DNA of 45,868 bases. It comes from Phormidium sp. OSCR. Lineage in GTDB: Bacteria > Cyanobacteriota > Cyanobacteriia > Cyanobacteriales > Geitlerinemataceae. This document shows, piece by piece, positions 8,839 to 16,235 of this stretch (its first letter is position 1; each line of letters opens with the position of its first letter). Location: positions 1 through 45,868 of the forward strand of contig LJZT01000025.1 of NCBI GenBank assembly GCA_001314905.1, read 5' to 3'. The notes beneath the pieces are model-generated. The model ran no database searches, was not told the origin of the DNA, and saw only the letters and a program-made list of their open reading frames with translations. The translations under genes and the position numbers were made by a program.

Positions 8839-9288
8839 GTGGTAGCTCACTCGTTTCTACTCGAACAAGGCCGGTGGCGCCTAGAAGGCAACTGGCTTGA
8901 ACGCTCAAACCCACCCATTACGGTGACCGGGCGCACCATTGTCGCCTGGGGACAAGATAACTGGTATAGCATGGTCACTAAACTGACCTTCCCCAACCGA
9001 GAACGGCAAGAAATTACCTGCCAATATCGGGGTCGTCTTGATGCCGGTGAGCGTCAATATACCTTCGTGTTACAACACAGTGAATTAGGACGAGTCGAAG
9101 GTGAAGGTTGGATTACCCCAGCCGCCATCGTCCAACGCTATTGGACCCTAAACGACAAACAACGCCGTAGTGGCTTTGAAACCCTCAGTCGTCTCGACAA
9201 CGGCAAATACGCCCTCTCCGGTGGCATGATGGCTGGCCTACACCTCACCAGTGCGATGGATGCCACCTTGGTTCTGCAATACAGCTAA
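8839..9288 (+). CDS. Conserved hypothetical protein
   Basis: This is a 149-residue soluble protein that I do not recognise as a named family. It opens at GTG 8839 and contains a regular alternation suggestive of an all-beta, lipocalin-like barrel (GRWRLEGNWLER, TGRTIVAWGQDNWYSMVTKL, YTFVLQHSELGRVEGEGW). There is no signal peptide, cysteine pair or membrane segment. The codon use resembles its neighbours and the pattern is gene-like. The GTG start is uncertain because no strong ribosome site is visible and no in-frame ATG precedes the conserved part. It stands between anmK and cysH in the same direction but with wide gaps, so operon membership is doubtful. The fold suggestion is inference. Confidence 0.7.
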   Translation: MVAHSFLLEQGRWRLEGNWLERSNPPITVTGRTIVAWGQDNWYSMVTKLTFPNRERQEITCQYRGRLDAGERQYTFVLQHSELGRVEGEGWITPAAIVQRYWTLNDKQRRSGFETLSRLDNGKYALSGGMMAGLHLTSAMDATLVLQYS

Positions 9289-9327
9289 CTCTTGCCAGTT
9301 TGCCCTAAAGCTACGCCCCTCCATCTT

Positions 9328-9424
9328 TCCCCTCTTGAGAGGGCTGCCCAGAGGGCGGAGTAGGTTCTTCCCTCCCCAGAGGAGTTAATCTCCCTATTCC
9401 CCGTTCACTATTCACTATTCACTA
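9328..9424 (+). repeat. Degenerate repeat copy plus TTCACTA heptads
   Basis: A diverged copy of the GC-rich repeat (CCCCTCTTGAGAGGG followed by GGGCGGAGTAGG) is followed by three TTCACTA heptads at 9404-9424. The rest of the 287-base gap before cysH is AT-rich. It holds a possible extended -10 (TGTAAAAT near 9492) but no gene. Confidence 0.65.
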
Positions 9425-9575
9425 TCCACTGTTCCCTCCTTCACCAAGCGATCGCATTTCTCAAGCACCCCTCAAAAATTTCTAAAAACTACTGTAAAAT
9501 TAACCTGGCTTACTCTAGCTTCTCCTCAAACGAACCCATTTTCAACCAACCTAGCCGTCTTTACACACATATTGT

Positions 9576-10334
9576 ATGACTGTCATCAGCCCCGATAAAA
9601 CCGCTCTCGATCTCGATCGCGCCAATCAGCATCTAACCAACGCCAACGCCAGCCAAATTGTCGCCTGGGCCGTTGAAACCTTTGGCGATGGCCTCGTGAT
9701 GAGTAGCAGTTTTGGGATTCAAGCGGCGGTGATGTTGCACCTCGTCACTCAAGTCAAACCCGATATCCCTGTCATTTGGGTAGACACCGGGTATCTTCCC
9801 CGAGAAACCTATCTCTTTGCCGAAAGCCTACAGCAACGCCTCAACCTAAATCTCCACATCTACCAATCTCCCATGAGTCCCGCTCGTATGGAAGCCCTTT
9901 ACGGCAAACTCTGGGAACAAGAAGACGTAGCAGCCCTCAATCGCTACGATGCTATTCGCAAAGTTGAACCCATGCAGCGGGCCTTACGAGAACTCGGGGC
10001 TACGGCTTGGCTAGCCGGATTGCGGGCCAACCAAACCCAACATCGCAGTAACCTACGTCCCGTGGAACGACAAGGCGACTACTATAAAGTCTTCCCCATT
10101 CTCGATTGGTCAGCCAAAGATGTCTATGAGTATCTCATGGCTCACGACCTACCCTACCATCCCTATTTTGACCTCGGCTACACCACCGTCGGTGATTGGC
10201 ATTCAAGTCGTCCCGTAACCGCCGACGATGACCATGAACGGAATACCCGCTTTCGTGGCCTCAAGCAAGAATGCGGCTTACATCTTCCCGAAAGTGATGG
10301 CGAGTCTGAAAGTCTCGATTCGAGTTCACTGTAA
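9576..10334 (+). CDS. cysH: Phosphoadenylyl-sulfate reductase
   Basis: CysH reduces PAPS to sulfite and PAP with thioredoxin as electron donor, in assimilatory sulfate reduction. The 252-residue protein has the nucleotide-binding [10 protein letters not shown] loop (residues 44-53), [10 protein letters not shown], and the C-terminal active-site motif KQECGLH with catalytic Cys233. The cysteine pairs that hold the 4Fe-4S cluster of plant-type APS reductases are absent: YDAIRK stands where those enzymes have CC-x-x-RK. PAPS is therefore the expected substrate. The ABC exporter starts 14 bases after the stop, so co-transcription is possible. Confidence 0.94.
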
Positions 10335-10348
10335 TCCTTGCTCTCAAT

Positions 10349-12166
10349 ATGGCTTCTTTTCGAGATGTTGTCGGATATTTCCGCGCCTATCGTCGTTCGG
10401 CAATTCTCAGCATTCTCCTCTCCGGGGGCTTTGAAATTCTGGATTTAGCGGTTCCTTACGCTGTCGGACAAATCCTCAATGTTCTCTCAGGACAAACCCT
10501 CGATCAATTTTCTCAGTCCCTCGTTCAGACGACCGCCAATATCCTCAATTTGACCCCTAATCCTAATCTGGAGTTGGGGGTATTTGTTGGCATTATTTTT
10601 GTTGTTTCTGTATTACGCGCCCCTCTACAACCTTGGTTGAGTGGTTGGTTTCACTGGTTTATTTCCCTGCAAGCCCGTCAAGATAAGTCGAAGTCCGTTG
10701 TGGCGAAAGTGCTGGAGTTACCCCTAAATTTTTATGATGAAAATAACCCTGGACGCATCGCTGGACGAGTTGCCAAAGGGATTACCAATTACACCTGGAC
10801 GTACCCAGAAATTGCTGGGCAGTTTCTGCCTAAACTCATTCGTGTTTTTGGGGTTTTTATCATTATTGCCTTAATTGAACCCTGGGTCGCTCTTGTGTTT
10901 GGGCTATCTTTTGTCGGTATTCTGGGCTTTAGTTTACGCCATCTAACTGCAATTGTTAAAAAAGAAAATGCTCTCGATCGCTACCTGGAAAATATCGATA
11001 GTCGAACCTCAGAAATTATCACCAATATCAAAACCGTAAAATCGTTCGCGAACGAAGGACGAGAATATAAGCGCCAACAACAACGAATCGATCGCGCTCA
11101 CTATTTCACCATTCACCGCATCCACCGTCAATATGTCCTCCTCGACACTTGGCGACGTACCGTCATTCAAGTCTCTCTATTTGGCATCCTCGTGATGACT
11201 CTTTGGGCTACGGTAAACGGACAGATTTCCTTAGGGCATTTTATTACCACCTTCACGATATCGAGTTACGCCTACGCGGAACTGCGCCCCCTCAGTTTGA
11301 TTGCTGAAGTTTTTGCCCGCCGTTATAGTTCTATGCTGCGCTTTCATGAGTTACTCAATACTCCCTCGGGACAAGATGCAGCCCGTTTAGAGTTAGATTA
11401 CGCCCAAGCCCCCCCCTATCACTTTAAGGGACAAATTCAATTTAAACACGTGGTCTTTGGCTACAGCCGGGATTTGCCCATTTTGAAAAACCTGGATTTT
11501 GAGATTCAACCTCGGCAAACGGTGGCATTGGTGGGACGCTCTGGATCAGGAAAATCAACCTTAGTTAAGCTTCTTTTTCGCTATTTTCAGCCGGATTCTG
11601 GGCAGATTTATCTCGATGGTCAAGATATTCAGTCCTTAGATGTGGGACAGTATCGCCGCCGCTTGGCCATTGTTCATCAAGATGTGGATATCTTTAATGG
11701 GACTCTTTTAGATAACCTTAAATATGGAAATCCTCAAGCTAGCTGGGATCAGGTCAAATCCGCTTGTGCGATCGCCCGCGTCGATGAGTTTCTCCCAGAA
11801 CTTCCTCAAGGCTATGCAACCGTCGTCGGTGAGCGCGGTGTCCGACTCTCCGGGGGACAGCGCCAACGCATCGGTATTGCCCGCGCCTTAATTGTTGAAC
11901 CGGATATTCTCGTCTTTGATGAGGCCACATCTAGCCTGGATTACGAGTCAGAACGCTCGATTCAGCAAGCCATGCACTCGATTTTTGGCACGCGCACTAC
12001 CCTGATTATCGCTCACCGCCTCAGCACCATTCGCGATGCTGATAAAATTATTGTCCTCGATAATGGCGCGATCGCCGAAATTGGCTCCCACCAAGATCTC
12101 CTCTCACAAGGCGGACTCTATCGCCGACTTCACGATCTATCTGAAAGCGGAGACTTGCTCGACTAA
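10349..12166 (+). CDS. ABC transporter with fused membrane and ATPase domains
   Basis: This is an exporter-type half-transporter of 605 residues, expected to act as a dimer in a membrane. The N-terminal half (about 15-320) has six predicted membrane segments and the coupling region SRTSEIITNIKTVKSFANEGRE typical of the MsbA/ABCB group. The ATPase half has Walker A GRSGSGKST (about 395-403), signature LSGGQRQR (about 501-508), Walker B ILVFDEATSSLD and the switch histidine in IIAHRLS. The substrate cannot be told from sequence; lipid, peptide and drug exporters share this build. The 14-base gap after cysH suggests transcriptional linkage but not a shared function. Confidence 0.9.
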   Translation: MASFRDVVGYFRAYRRSAILSILLSGGFEILDLAVPYAVGQILNVLSGQTLDQFSQSLVQTTANILNLTPNPNLELGVFVGIIFVVSVLRAPLQPWLSGWFHWFISLQARQDKSKSVVAKVLELPLNFYDENNPGRIAGRVAKGITNYTWTYPEIAGQFLPKLIRVFGVFIIIALIEPWVALVFGLSFVGILGFSLRHLTAIVKKENALDRYLENIDSRTSEIITNIKTVKSFANEGREYKRQQQRIDRAHYFTIHRIHRQYVLLDTWRRTVIQVSLFGILVMTLWATVNGQISLGHFITTFTISSYAYAELRPLSLIAEVFARRYSSMLRFHELLNTPSGQDAARLELDYAQAPPYHFKGQIQFKHVVFGYSRDLPILKNLDFEIQPRQTVALVGRSGSGKSTLVKLLFRYFQPDSGQIYLDGQDIQSLDVGQYRRRLAIVHQDVDIFNGTLLDNLKYGNPQASWDQVKSACAIARVDEFLPELPQGYATVVGERGVRLSGGQRQRIGIARALIVEPDILVFDEATSSLDYESERSIQQAMHSIFGTRTTLIIAHRLSTIRDADKIIVLDNGAIAEIGSHQDLLSQGGLYRRLHDLSESGDLLD

Positions 12167-12206
12167 TCTTTCTCCTAGAAATTCTCAAACTTTTTCTCGA
12201 AAACCC

Positions 12207-12236
12207 TTGACAGTCTCTCAACAAACTGGCTATAAT
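12207..12236 (+). promoter_or_regulatory. Consensus sigma-70 promoter for the 12243-12366 unit
   Basis: TTGACA (12207-12212) and TATAAT (12231-12236) are both perfect boxes separated by 18 bases. Transcription would start near 12243. It is the best promoter match I found in the window, yet no reading frame follows within 200 bases. Confidence 0.78.
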
Positions 12237-12242
12237 CAAGAC

Positions 12243-12366
12243 AGAAATACAAATAAAGTCTTAGCCCGCCTCGGGTAGCACCAATTTTTCCGACGGTTAG
12301 GAGCAAGGCTTCGCGGCCCCGGTGCGGGCCGCGCAAAGCCAAACATCTAAGCTGCGCAATTTTTTT
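12243..12366 (+). ncRNA. Candidate small RNA or leader RNA, family unknown
   Basis: About 124 bases lie between a perfect promoter and a T7 tract (12360-12366). CCCG-CCT-CGGG forms a small stem near 12265. A very stable hairpin follows: GGCTT+CGCGGCCC (12307-12319) pairs with GGGCCGCG+AAGCC (12326-12340), thirteen pairs with a two-base bulge and a six-base loop. An alternative stem, GCGCA (12331-12335) with TGCGC (12353-12357), directly precedes AA and the T7 tract and competes with the first hairpin for 12331-12340. No plausible ORF is present. It could be an independent trans-acting RNA, or an attenuator leader for the oxidoreductase gene downstream, which also has its own TATAAT box at 12409-12414. 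I do not recognise a known RNA family. Confidence 0.55.
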
Positions 12367-12408
12367 AAGTCTCCAAAATCTCCCAAAAAATAGGTTGTCG
12401 ACAAAACC

Positions 12409-12414
12409 TATAAT
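12409..12414 (+). promoter_or_regulatory. Possible -10 box of the NDH-2-like gene
   Basis: A perfect TATAAT lies 40 bases before the chosen ATG, but no good -35 box stands 16-19 bases upstream (AAAAAT there). It may need an activator, or be fortuitous. Confidence 0.4.
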
Positions 12415-12454
12415 GGGGTCTTAAACAGAGTTGCCCTTTCTCCTCTTACGCTCA

Positions 12455-13621
12455 ATGAACCGTCCCGCCAACTCCCCCCTCAACCCACGCATCTGCATCT
12501 TGGGCGGTGGTTTCGCGGGACTCTATAGTGCCTTAGCCCTAGCCAAAATCTCCCTCTTGCAGCAATGGGAAATCGTCTTAATTGACCAACGCGATCGCTT
12601 TGAATTCAGTCCCCTCCTCTACGAACTGATCAGCGGCGAACTCGAAGCCTGGGAGATCGCCCCTCCCTACCTGCAACTGCTGCGAAATTGGCCCATCACC
12701 GTTTACTGCGATCGCATCGAAGCCATCAACTTAAACGCTCGCCAAGTCCAACTACGCGATCGCGGCCCCCTGAACTACACCTATCTCATCATCGCCCTCG
12801 GAGTTGAGAGTCGGCTTCCCCCTCACCCCGACGTCCTAACCTTCAGAAGTCTCGCCGACGTAGAAAAACTCAAGGCAGAACTCGAACGATTCAAGCATCA
12901 GTCGTCCCTAGACATCAGCATCATTGGTGCCGGAGCTAGTGGCATAGAATTGGCCTGTAAACTCTGCGATCGCCTCGGCCCTCGCCAGCAAATCCATCTC
13001 ATCCACCGTGGTAGCCAACTGCTACCCGAACTTAGCCCCCCAATCCGCAAAGCCGCCGAGAGGGCCATTAACCAACGTCGTATCCGACTTAGCCTAAACA
13101 CCAACGTCGAGAAGATTCAACATCAGGGAGACTTCCAGCTTCAACTGACACAACACGAACAATCCTTCCGAGAAACAAGCCATCTCGTGATTTGGACCGC
13201 CGGAACCCAGGCCAATCCCCTCATTTCCAGTCTCCCCGGCGGCGATCGCGGCCAACTTCGGGTCACCCCCGAGTTACAACTAACCCGCTACCCCGAAGTG
13301 TTCGTCCTCGGAGATGTCGCCGCCACACCCTTTCCTAACACCGCCCAAGTCGCCTATCAACAAGCACCCCACGTCGCCCAAAACCTCAAAGGCTATATCT
13401 TTCAACAACCACTCAAACCCTTTCACTATAAACACATCGGAGATATGCTCACCCTCGGCATCCACAACGGTGTCGTTCACAGCTTCGGTCTCACCCTTAC
13501 CGGAAGATTGGCTCATCTCATCCGCAGCTTAACCTATATCCAACGACTCCCCACCCTCAAACAAAGCTTGCGCGTCTTCGCTCATCGACTCAAACGGATC
13601 TTCCGTCCCTCATCCCGCTGA
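12455..13621 (+). CDS. NAD(P)/FAD-dependent oxidoreductase, NDH-2-like
   Basis: This two-dinucleotide flavoprotein resembles type II NADH dehydrogenases, which pass electrons from NAD(P)H to quinone without pumping protons. It has the FAD motif ILGGGFAGLYSALAL near residue 16, the second nucleotide-binding motif IIGAGASGIELA near residue 157, and the late motif EVFVLGDVAATPFP near residue 280. The ATG at 12455 is preferred to the upstream TTG at 12431 because it directly precedes the conserved N-terminus. It leaves 388 residues, normal for the family. The last 40 bases overlap the convergent protease gene. Carotenoid or ferredoxin reductase relatives share the fold, so the electron acceptor is inferred. 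Confidence 0.88.
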   Translation: MNRPANSPLNPRICILGGGFAGLYSALALAKISLLQQWEIVLIDQRDRFEFSPLLYELISGELEAWEIAPPYLQLLRNWPITVYCDRIEAINLNARQVQLRDRGPLNYTYLIIALGVESRLPPHPDVLTFRSLADVEKLKAELERFKHQSSLDISIIGAGASGIELACKLCDRLGPRQQIHLIHRGSQLLPELSPPIRKAAERAINQRRIRLSLNTNVEKIQHQGDFQLQLTQHEQSFRETSHLVIWTAGTQANPLISSLPGGDRGQLRVTPELQLTRYPEVFVLGDVAATPFPNTAQVAYQQAPHVAQNLKGYIFQQPLKPFHYKHIGDMLTLGIHNGVVHSFGLTLTGRLAHLIRSLTYIQRLPTLKQSLRVFAHRLKRIFRPSSR

Positions 13622-14358
13622 ATCGGACCAACCGGCCAACCCAGGCGCGTCGGCTGTTCATAGACATACCGCAACGTCCCTAGATCTCGGGGCGAAATCA
13701 TCGGCGGGCGACGGACTTGGGAATAATACATCACATCTGTCGGGCGATCGCTATGGCCCCAAATCCCCAAAGCATGACCCAACTCATGACGTAGAGCCGC
13801 CTGAGCCGCTTCAGTTCCCTGCGTCGGACTCAAGAGAATCTCAAAGCGATGGCCCAACTGCTGATCCCGCCAATAGAGGTCATAGCTGACTCGGGCCGCC
13901 GCCGCGCGAAAGTCATCCCTCACCCGTCTCGGTGGCGGACGACGCCGCCAAATCACAATATCCGCCCTTTCCGAGTCTTCAATCTGTTGCAGCCGTAGAT
14001 AGTCTCCCCACTGCTCAACCACAGACATCATCTGGGTTCGCCAAGTCTCAGAGGCCTTCTCATCGAGATAGACCGTCACAGGAAACTGTGACCAGACTAA
14101 TGCTCCCACCCCAGTCTCCTCTAACTGCTCCCCATAATGCTCCTCAGAAGTAATCTCTAGTAAGGACTCTGGCAGAGGATGAGCGTGATAGGGGAGATCA
14201 TCGAGGCCAATCTGATCGATGTCGCTGTCCTCCTTGGCCGTTAAAGGTGCAGCCAGGGCGATCACCAAAACAAGGGCGATCGCCGCAGCCATCCACCCTT
14301 GTCTAATCTTGCCTCGCATCCCGCGAGAGCGGCCAATCTTGCTATACCCAACCCGCAC
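13582..14358 (-). CDS. Matrixin-like zinc metalloprotease, exported
   Basis: This is a zinc protease of the metzincin group with 258 residues. The N-terminus has a basic stretch and a hydrophobic core (about residues 22-41, AAAIALVLVIALAAPLTA), consistent with a signal peptide and export to the periplasm or outside. The zinc site is HELGHALGIWGH (His191, Glu192, His195, His202) followed by TDVMYY, which supplies the Met-turn. The third histidine lies one residue further on than in the standard HExxHxxGxxH spacing. The start at 14358 overlaps the end of secG by 17 bases. A later ATG at 14319 keeps the signal peptide and is a fair alternative. The 3' end overlaps the NDH-2-like gene by 40 bases. 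Co-transcription with gpmI and secG is likely. Confidence 0.85.
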   Translation of the reverse strand: MRVGYSKIGRSRGMRGKIRQGWMAAAIALVLVIALAAPLTAKEDSDIDQIGLDDLPYHAHPLPESLLEITSEEHYGEQLEETGVGALVWSQFPVTVYLDEKASETWRTQMMSVVEQWGDYLRLQQIEDSERADIVIWRRRPPPRRVRDDFRAAAARVSYDLYWRDQQLGHRFEILLSPTQGTEAAQAALRHELGHALGIWGHSDRPTDVMYYSQVRRPPMISPRDLGTLRYVYEQPTRLGWPVGPIQRDEGRKIRLSR

Positions 14359-14569
14359 TTAAGACCACCGTACAGCCCATAAACAAGATAGTCAGCGTCC
14401 AGGTAATGCGATTTAGGGTCGTCTCAGCACTTTTAGCACTGGTAAACAGTTGAGCTTGGCCACCAATCCCGCCAATGCCATCGCCTTTGGGAGAGTGGAG
14501 GAGAACCACCACAATCAGGCTCACCGCCGAAATCACCCAAACCCATTGAACAATCGTTGCAGTCGTCAT
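14342..14569 (-). CDS. secG: Preprotein translocase subunit SecG
   Basis: SecG is the small stimulatory subunit of the SecYEG protein-export channel. The 75-residue protein has two membrane segments (about residues 5-25 and 52-72) and the family's cytoplasmic loop LLHSPKGDGIGGIGGQ. The ATG at 14569 is chosen. Upstream in-frame codons to 14683 would add a repeat-encoded CNLFCNLFCDLF stretch unlike any SecG. The gene follows gpmI on the same strand, an arrangement I recall in other cyanobacteria. The upstream 12-bp repeats replace an ordinary leader. Confidence 0.93.
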   Translation of the reverse strand: MTTATIVQWVWVISAVSLIVVVLLHSPKGDGIGGIGGQAQLFTSAKSAETTLNRITWTLTILFMGCTVVLSAGWV

Positions 14570-14574
14570 AAGCT

Positions 14575-14617
14575 CACAAAAAAGGTCACAAAAAAGGTTA
14601 CAAAAAAGGTTACAAAC
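14575..14617. repeat. 12-bp tandem repeat between gpmI and secG
   Basis: Three full units of CACAAAAAAGGT or TACAAAAAAGGT and one partial unit fill most of the gap between the gpmI stop and the secG start. Read on the coding strand they give repeated T6 runs without stems. Confidence 0.9.
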
Positions 14618-14639
14618 ATCGAGGACACCCAGAGTCAGA

Positions 14640-16235
14640 CTAGACGCGAACCGCGATCGGCGTGCGATTGGGATGGACATCATAACTGGCCGGAACCAGC
14701 ATCGAGCGTCCCGTCATCTCTGGAGGTTGCGGTAGACCGAGAATCTGGAGAATCGTTGGGGCAATATCTGCCAAACGACCATCATCCCGTAAAACAACCT
14801 CGCCGCCATAGCCTGGAACCTTGGCCCCTTCCCCTTCAATGAAAATAAAGGGAACCGGGTTTGTGGTGTGGGCCGTCCAGGGATTTCCCTTTTCGTCTTT
14901 CATATACTCAGCATTACCGTGATCAGCGGTAATCAGGGCCGTTCCTCCCACCTTGCTAATACTATCTAATAGACGGCCCAAACAGCGATCTACCGTCGTG
15001 ATGGCCTCGACTGAAGCATCCATCATTCCCGTATGCCCCACCATATCCGGGTTAGCATAGTTAATCACCACCAGAGAATACACCCGTTGCGCGATCGCCT
15101 CGACCGCCACATCCGTCACCTCTTCGGCCGACATCGCCGGAGCACGATCATAAGTCGCCACCATCGGCGAATTAATCAAATGGCGATCTTCCCCCTCAAA
15201 GGGTGTTTCCCGACCCCCATTGAAGAAATAGGTGACATGAGCATATTTTTCCGTTTCTGCGGTACGGAACTGTTTTAAACCATGATCAGCAATCACTTCC
15301 CCGAGAATGTTGGTCAAGTTTTGTGGCTCAAAGGCCACCAACACCGGGAAACTGGGATCATACTGAGTAAACGTAAGGAAATTGAGCGGCACATACTCAC
15401 GCTCAAACGCCTCAAAGCTTTCATCTACTAGGGCCTGAGTCAACTCCCGAGCGCGATCGGGTCGGAAATTATAGAAAATCACACCATCGTTGGCTTCGAT
15501 CGCCCCATCGGCCACACGCGTCGGCAGAATAAACTCATCCGTGACCTCCTCAGCATAAGCCGCTTCGATCACCTCTCCCACCGACTGATCCACCTGAGTG
15601 CTATTGTCCGTCATCACCCGATAGGCTTTCTCCACCCGATCCCAGCGGTGATCCCGGTCCATGGCGTAATAGCGGCCGCTGACGGTGACAATTTTTCCGA
15701 CTCCCACCTCATCGAGATGCCCTTGAATTTTGCGAATAAAGGCGCTTCCCGAGTGAGGATTTGTATCCCGACCATCGGTAATCGCGTGGATACAAACCTC
15801 GTCGAGATTTTCAGCCTTAGCAAGACTGATCAATCCTAATAAATGGTCAATATGGGAGTGAACCCCACCGTCAGAACATAACCCAATCAGGTGAAGCTTC
15901 CCCCCGGATTCTCGGATGGCTCGGCAAAGCTTTTGGATGGCGGGGTTTTGACGAATCGAACCATCTTCGATCGCATCAGAAATCCGTACCAGTTCCTGGG
16001 GAACGACTCGTCCCGATCCCAGGTTCAAATGTCCCACCTCAGAATTTCCCATTTGTCCGATGGGCAGCCCCACATCCTTTCCAGACGTGCGGATCGTGGT
16101 ACGGGGGTAGGCGTTCCACAGGCTGTCCATTACGGGCGTATCGGCTGCGGCAATGGAGTTATTGCTGTCTTCTTCTCGATATCCCCAGCCATCTAGAATC
16201 ACCAGCACCACCGGAGACACAGGTGCTTGACTCAT
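14640..16235 (-). CDS. gpmI: 2,3-bisphosphoglycerate-independent phosphoglycerate mutase
   Basis: GpmI interconverts 3- and 2-phosphoglycerate in glycolysis and gluconeogenesis through a phosphoserine intermediate and two metal ions, probably manganese. The 531-residue protein begins MSQAPVSPVVLVILDGWGYRE, with the first metal aspartate in DGWG. The nucleophile serine is in MGNSEVGHLN near residue 65. ITDGRDT, SGRYYAMDRD and the later metal motifs NYANPDMVGHTG and ITADHGNAE are all present. It is the first gene of the gpmI-secG-protease set. The start lies 160 bases downstream of the end of the SbcC-like gene on the same strand. Confidence 0.96.
   Translation of the reverse strand: MSQAPVSPVVLVILDGWGYREEDSNNSIAAADTPVMDSLWNAYPRTTIRTSGKDVGLPIGQMGNSEVGHLNLGSGRVVPQELVRISDAIEDGSIRQNPAIQKLCRAIRESGGKLHLIGLCSDGGVHSHIDHLLGLISLAKAENLDEVCIHAITDGRDTNPHSGSAFIRKIQGHLDEVGVGKIVTVSGRYYAMDRDHRWDRVEKAYRVMTDNSTQVDQSVGEVIEAAYAEEVTDEFILPTRVADGAIEANDGVIFYNFRPDRARELTQALVDESFEAFEREYVPLNFLTFTQYDPSFPVLVAFEPQNLTNILGEVIADHGLKQFRTAETEKYAHVTYFFNGGRETPFEGEDRHLINSPMVATYDRAPAMSAEEVTDVAVEAIAQRVYSLVVINYANPDMVGHTGMMDASVEAITTVDRCLGRLLDSISKVGGTALITADHGNAEYMKDEKGNPWTAHTTNPVPFIFIEGEGAKVPGYGGEVVLRDDGRLADIAPTILQILGLPQPPEMTGRSMLVPASYDVHPNRTPIAVRV

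Follow-up and report, generated by a model that had tools for sequence, protein, structure and literature searches.

A putative multi-copy family of cyanobacterial small RNA genes that differ in their 5' hairpins and share a 3' hairpin and tail

The window analysed here is the whole 45,868-nucleotide stretch of contig LJZT01000025.1 from Phormidium sp. OSCR (GenBank assembly GCA_001314905.1). Between a gene for an ABC transporter and one for an NDH-2-like oxidoreductase, it carries a sigma-70-type promoter followed by a predicted small RNA (sRNA) gene (Table 1). The perfect promoter, the 13-pair hairpin (interrupted by a CA bulge), the alternative stem and the T7 tract were all found as an earlier note on this DNA had described them.

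Table 1. Features of the predicted small RNA locus and its flanking genes, in window positions
Feature	Position	Strand	Basis
ABC transporter (ABC_membrane + ABC_tran), upstream neighbour	10349-12166	+	Pfam
Sigma-70-type promoter, TTGACA-18-TATAAT	12207-12236	+	12/12 consensus match
-35 TTGACA, 18-nt spacer, -10 TATAAT	12207-12212, 12231-12236	+	Coordinates re-checked
Small RNA gene, about 124 nt	12243-12366	+	Orthologue conservation; start and end predicted, not mapped
5' hairpin, variable module, loop with GCACC (12278-12282)	12259-12302	+	RNAalifold, 4 orthologues
3' hairpin, constant module, 13 pairs, loop CGGTGC	12307-12340	+	23 distinct sequences
Alternative stem	12331-12335/12353-12357	+	Sequence
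Conserved tail CAAACATCTAAGCTGCGCAA, proposed contact site of a common partner	12340-12359	+	Recurrence of the exact core CAAACATCTARGCTGC
T7 tract, probable transcript 3' end	12360-12366	+	Sequence; T6-T9 among 7 orthologues
TATAAT, possible separate -10 of the NDH-2-like gene	12409-12414	+	Between T tract and ATG in 6/7 orthologues
NDH-2-like pyridine nucleotide-disulphide oxidoreductase, downstream neighbour	12455-13621	+	Pfam Pyr_redox_2

The promoter is the sole site in the window to match the consensus at 12/12 positions, and two sites score at least 11/12; 40 simulated windows (order-1 Markov) held on average 0.0 and 0.45 such sites, respectively. Translation of three frames of 12243-12366 yielded no convincing open reading frame (ORF), in line with what had been reported before; an 80-aa ORF (12036-12278) that starts within the ABC transporter gene reaches into the 5' end of the RNA. 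With a promoter of its own and no convincing ORF, the locus is organised as a trans-encoded sRNA gene would be. As for the stable hairpins initially described, the 13-pair stem is present, whereas the stability of the fold is ordinary (z -0.99, with 37/200 shuffles as good). Furthermore, no canonical terminator hairpin lies directly before the T tract, and a scan of 9000-16000 found 0 against a mean of 6.8 in shuffles. Since the fold energy is ordinary and canonical terminators number zero, folding energy is not the basis of the feature; what lifts it above chance is its conservation among orthologues and its recurrence together with promoters.

When 12190-12385 was compared with 99 relatives, at most 8 candidates being scored per genome, the whole unit was found at one site in 7/7 genus genomes, each of which also has the 3' half elsewhere. 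Across these seven orthologues, 12243-12367 shows a mean pairwise identity of 0.955, with 110/125 columns invariant. Identity is 0.817 within the promoter and 0.674 ahead of it, 0.603 in 12237-12242 and 0.454 in 12368-12454; conservation drops at the predicted start and at the T tract. The adjoining ends of the two coding sequences reach 0.887 and 0.838 (0.68 at third codon positions), against 0.955 for the RNA. Judged by this comparison, the predicted RNA of the window is under selection as an RNA.

The location before an NDH-2-like gene, as originally proposed, agrees with Pfam, and the RNA lies just upstream of this gene in the same orientation in 7/7 genus genomes. We place the start of the gene at ATG 12455 rather than TTG 12431, the ATG being found in 7/7 orthologues. 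In one genome (G006; locus L005, G006:C392) the separate TATAAT is missing and the ATG follows the T tract of the RNA by 18 nt, and read-through from the RNA may drive the NDH-2-like gene there. Among 59 genomes, the nearest homologue of the NDH-2-like protein outside the genus is 48% identical (G009), and 3.5 kb near its gene contain no tail-like site on the gene's strand.

In 23 distinct sequences, 97.7% of the cells of the 3' hairpin (12307-12340) are paired, as compared with at most 48.8% for slid versions. Four of its pairs have changed on both sides, a number reached in 8/500 shuffles, and its covariation of 0.278 is reached in 0/500 shuffles and exceeds that of slid versions (at most 0.145); the number of further pair types in these 23 sequences is not above that in shuffles. 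The alternative stem keeps 87.0% of cells paired (shuffles 87.2%, slid versions at most 40.4%), with zero doubly changed pairs and with 5/7 pairs broken in some of the same sequences. Covariation in relatives, which the earlier note had put forward as a check, is thus seen for the main hairpin but not for the alternative stem. Conserved, mutually exclusive stems, as implied by its suggestion of an attenuator layout in which the stems compete for 12331-12340, were not found. The equivalent 5' hairpin, predicted on the very alignments on which it was scored, has double-change pairs in 4/6 sets and none in the window group (4 orthologues) or the L254 group. We rejected a kissing contact between GCACC in the 5' loop and GGTGC in the 3' loop as a family feature, GCACC being found in 22/30 loci with a GGTGC loop and absent in 8.

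Earlier described as an orphan, the window RNA is instead one of many copies. Its 3' half (hairpin and tail CAAACATCTARGCTGCGCAA) was detected by blastn at 12 places in its own genome, the window included, and most of these copies carry some form of GCAAAGCCAAACATCTARGCWGCGCAATTTT. R2, a sequence-only profile model, gives 19 matches at E<=1 in this genome, at least 16 of the matches listed having E<=0.001, and 11-18 matches (E<=1) in each of the other six genus genomes; further, more diverged copies were recognised by reading. Among 50 distinct copies from eight genomes, the promoter scores 12/12 in 15, 11/12 in 31, 10 in 1 and 8-9 in 3, such that 46/50 copies have a promoter of at least 11/12 upstream and 47/50 one of at least 10/12, compared with 9/865 control windows at 10/12 or better. 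The distance from the end of the -10 element to AAACATC is 93-110 nt in the long classes and shorter in the short classes.

Several copies show additional features. Several paralogues, among them L015, L020, L026 and L023, have a palindrome, GATTNNNGTACNNNAATC, or a near form of it no more than about 40 nt past the T tract; the window copy is without it. Exact GATTNNNGTACNNNAATC occurs beside family RNAs in 2/2 cases in G001 and 2/3 in G005 (e.g. G005:C1:4436609-4436626), with 1 in G018 unplaced; at 1 mismatch it is found at about 1.7 to 3x its control in four genomes and at five times its control in G018. A subclass (L038, L113, L117, L211, L224 and L233) has a common GGCGGGAGGGG directly before the 3' hairpin, which could pair in part with the Yfr1 motif. 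Two ideas were discarded. Many copies read as ...NI-stop in one frame of the tail, but the conservation continues beyond the stop and, in the window copy, this frame lacks a start codon, which argues against a coding sequence; and the tail-like sites of the genome are not clustered, which argues against a CRISPR/tracrRNA relationship.

We examined the genomic positions of the copies using 55 loci from G000, G001, G002 and G005, of which 54 were clustered on their flanking sequences after masking of the RNA (L267, with its tail outside the search range, was left out; L225, probably a false hit, is counted within the 54). This gave ten clusters with one locus per genome, one mixed cluster of four, one pair and eight singletons. 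Among the links listed, 7/10 clusters match on both sides, and in 3/10 some or all links match on a single side only. In 9/10 clusters conservation is higher in the RNA than in either flank, the exception being the L261 cluster, where it is not more conserved than the downstream flank. Across the ten clusters, the 3' module is better conserved than the 5' module in eight, equally conserved in one and less conserved in one. By these flank comparisons the predicted family is a stable gene set, with ten loci at fixed positions in four genus genomes. Read by eye from ORF translations, 16 other copies (11 in the own genome, 5 in G018) have other neighbours than the window copy; 10/16 lie between convergent genes, and in 14/16 the next gene downstream is on the opposite strand.

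The exact core CAAACATCTARGCTGC occurs in 8/388 genomes of the order, namely 7/7 of the genus and G018, which belongs to another family, at 2-9 sites each; its reversed-pattern control gives 0 in those eight genomes. With one mismatch allowed, a tail site is present in 36/386 genomes of the phylum, a sample to which G018 does not belong, with 7-12 in four genus genomes and at most 2 in the others. A longer form of the tail, searched among 84,980 species genomes with records near the window possibly left out, matches 7 stretches, 3 in Phormidium willei BDU 130791 and 4 in Phormidium sp. SL48-SHIP, and nothing else; it has no match among viral contigs, and no plasmid match was found for the RNA.

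In G018, R2 gives 41 matches at E<=1 and 24 at E<=0.001, which fall into two types, type B being without TTGACA by eye. The promoters of six tested copies score 11, 11, 11, 11, 11 and 9 of 12, and the copies read are without a T run. At L193, L194, L195, L196, L201 and L205 the two types are convergent, their tails, separated by about 25-30 nt, forming an inverted repeat; at a distance of about 450-465 bp the unit is found again at L193 and L194. By eye, two copies 1.25 kb apart at L008 (G018:C149) flank a RelE-like toxin ORF and its possible partner.

Applied to 99 genomes, R2 finds something at E<=1 in 57 of them, mostly by chance outside the genus and G018; in the best match beyond these (G039, E 0.0027) the module is absent by eye. 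A second model, R1, has matches at E<=0.01 in 23/195 genomes of the order, 8 being the genus and G018 and 15 being further genomes, the best of which belong to genus g17 (E 2.7e-7, 1.8e-6 and 2.9e-6). A check by eye took in 12 of these 15 (G026, G087 and G194 were left out): the matches of g17 (G024, G091, G162, G051), G108, G040 and G019 resemble family members and are probably diverged ones, those in G106, G116, G127 and G166 were rejected, and the match in G023 was placed with neither. In G108 there are two short copies (E 0.0087), closely preceded, by eye, by TTGACA-18-TATAAT and TTGACA-18-TAGAAT; a stem test on the further R1 matches failed to discriminate, and the promoter search run with it did not extend to these close promoters. 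L312 (G019:C155), a probable member, has UCGAAACAAG in its hairpin, which resembles the Yfr2 loop. The restriction to the genus suggested by the exact tail (8/388) is made unlikely by the probable R1 members beyond it; the exact tail is narrow, and the putative family probably wider.

As the earlier note had it, no known family was recognised: Rfam gives no fitting one. RF01701 (Cyano-1) has no match in the window copy, either at gathering or at E<=10, and none in the other family loci scanned (8 with the gathering cutoff, 11 with E<=2, 10 with E<=1; L038 in two of these sets). Matches to Mu-gpT-DE, PreQ1-III, sraA, CbSR14, NPPA-AS1_3 and rli117 were under the gathering score and treated as chance, and a tRNA at L068 is a neighbour of the family RNA. 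Each of the 7 genus genomes, and G018 as well, has a single Cyano-1 locus apart from the family RNAs; those of the genus score 39.3-41.4 bits, the gathering score being 41 (in the own genome C108:1675-1742, 40.2 bits). The Cyano-1 loci in G000, G001 and G018 have both the 5' GUGUGAGGAG and the central loop CGAAAC, in agreement with its identity with Yfr2, which we take as given; neither is seen on reading the window RNA. Cyano-1/Yfr2 thus differs from the family described here in its motifs and its separate single locus, with no Cyano-1 match in the scanned family loci. Additional Yfr2 candidates sought by loop pattern were dismissed, as matches with 1-2 mismatches were near control level and none of six loci read and seven scanned with Rfam fitted. 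When co-folded with a Yfr2 homologue, 9/10 members did no better than shuffles (at least 12/60 as good for each), and for L265 0/60 shuffles were as good, a raw value from one of ten tests.

Several known cyanobacterial sRNAs bear comparison with the family. NsiR1 of Nostoc is tandemly repeated, whereas the copies here are dispersed, which sets it apart by description. The Yfr2 study describes short RNAs with a strong promoter, a hairpin and short conserved single-stranded motifs, present in several copies in some genomes and without conserved neighbours; in copy number, length, promoter strength, hairpin and variable neighbours they are like the family here (PMC2662882). Likewise, Yfr1 and Yfr10 have one short conserved motif in common in RNAs of otherwise different structure, whereas the family here shares a 3' hairpin and a tail (PMC6778093). 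A search of the open-licence literature found no description of this sRNA family, and the string AAACATCTAAGCTGC gave no paper there.

The best reading of these comparisons is a new family of sRNA genes that would combine variable 5' hairpins with a constant 3' hairpin and tail, and we consider it likely that the window holds a strongly promoted, stand-alone sRNA gene belonging to such a multi-copy, trans-acting cyanobacterial family. The original suggestion of a new small RNA gains support from the promoter, the limits of conservation, the covarying hairpin, the lack of an Rfam match and the many paralogues. The family RNAs would be made and accumulate, and the constant tail would let them act in trans on a common partner, either by base pairing to an mRNA or other RNA or by binding one protein, and the 5' hairpins might tune the specificity, dose or stability of each copy. 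Over 54 loci, AAACATCTA is unpaired 72% on average (>0.6 in 35/54), compared with 42% for the following seven bases. We slightly prefer base pairing to protein binding, as AAACATCTA tends to stay unpaired and AUG occurs in its complement. Allowing at most 3 mismatches, the 17-nt tail has 36 sites in its own genome, 17 of which we read as family copies, leaving 19 against 11 sites in the control. No long complementary target emerged, none of the 14 of these 19 sites read by eye resembling a gene start, and thus either short-seed pairing or binding of a shared protein may be at work.

The second of these overlaps with the idea of a protein decoy or ribonucleoprotein (RNP), in which the tail and 3' hairpin bind one RNA-binding protein that the copies titrate or for which they are cargo. 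The conservation of the tail in G018 and across paralogues with unlike 5' parts, the high copy number and the failure to find a long complementary target are all consistent with this, but no cognate protein was identified and, by eye, no protein gene recurs beside the 16 copies examined; we regard it as possible, if unlikely. A modular RNP seems improbable; here the constant 3' hairpin and tail would be the handle for one dedicated protein, which at least ten variable 5' hairpins would address, guide-like, to many targets, and some lineages would have a few tens of copies. Dispersed repeats or mobile-element remnants that happen to carry a promoter might account for the many near-identical 3' halves, the placement of ten of 16 copies between convergent genes, the palindrome after several copies and the convergent inverted pairs of the two G018 types, but they are highly improbable given that ten loci are syntenic in four genomes and that conservation is confined to the RNA, with changes that preserve structure. 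Finally, the redox-responsive leader proposed earlier, in which competing stems would set read-through into the NDH-2-like gene, is barely tenable: like attenuators and leaders, the window copy has hairpins and then a T run upstream of a gene, with which it is co-oriented in all seven genus genomes and which it closely adjoins in G006, and the alternative stem stays paired above its slid versions, but that stem is broken in some members and lacks a covarying pair, the gene has its own TATAAT in six of the seven genomes, and the paralogues differ in their neighbours by eye, most preceding a gene on the opposite strand.

Returning to a family of trans-acting sRNAs, the presence of one tail on RNAs that differ in their 5' parts indicates a common partner, which could be directly fished out, and the syntenic set would make every copy testable by deletion. 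If the RNAs are made, more than 10 loci per genome, and at least two dozen in G018, would be given to one undescribed RNA family, where Cyano-1/Yfr2 has one locus.
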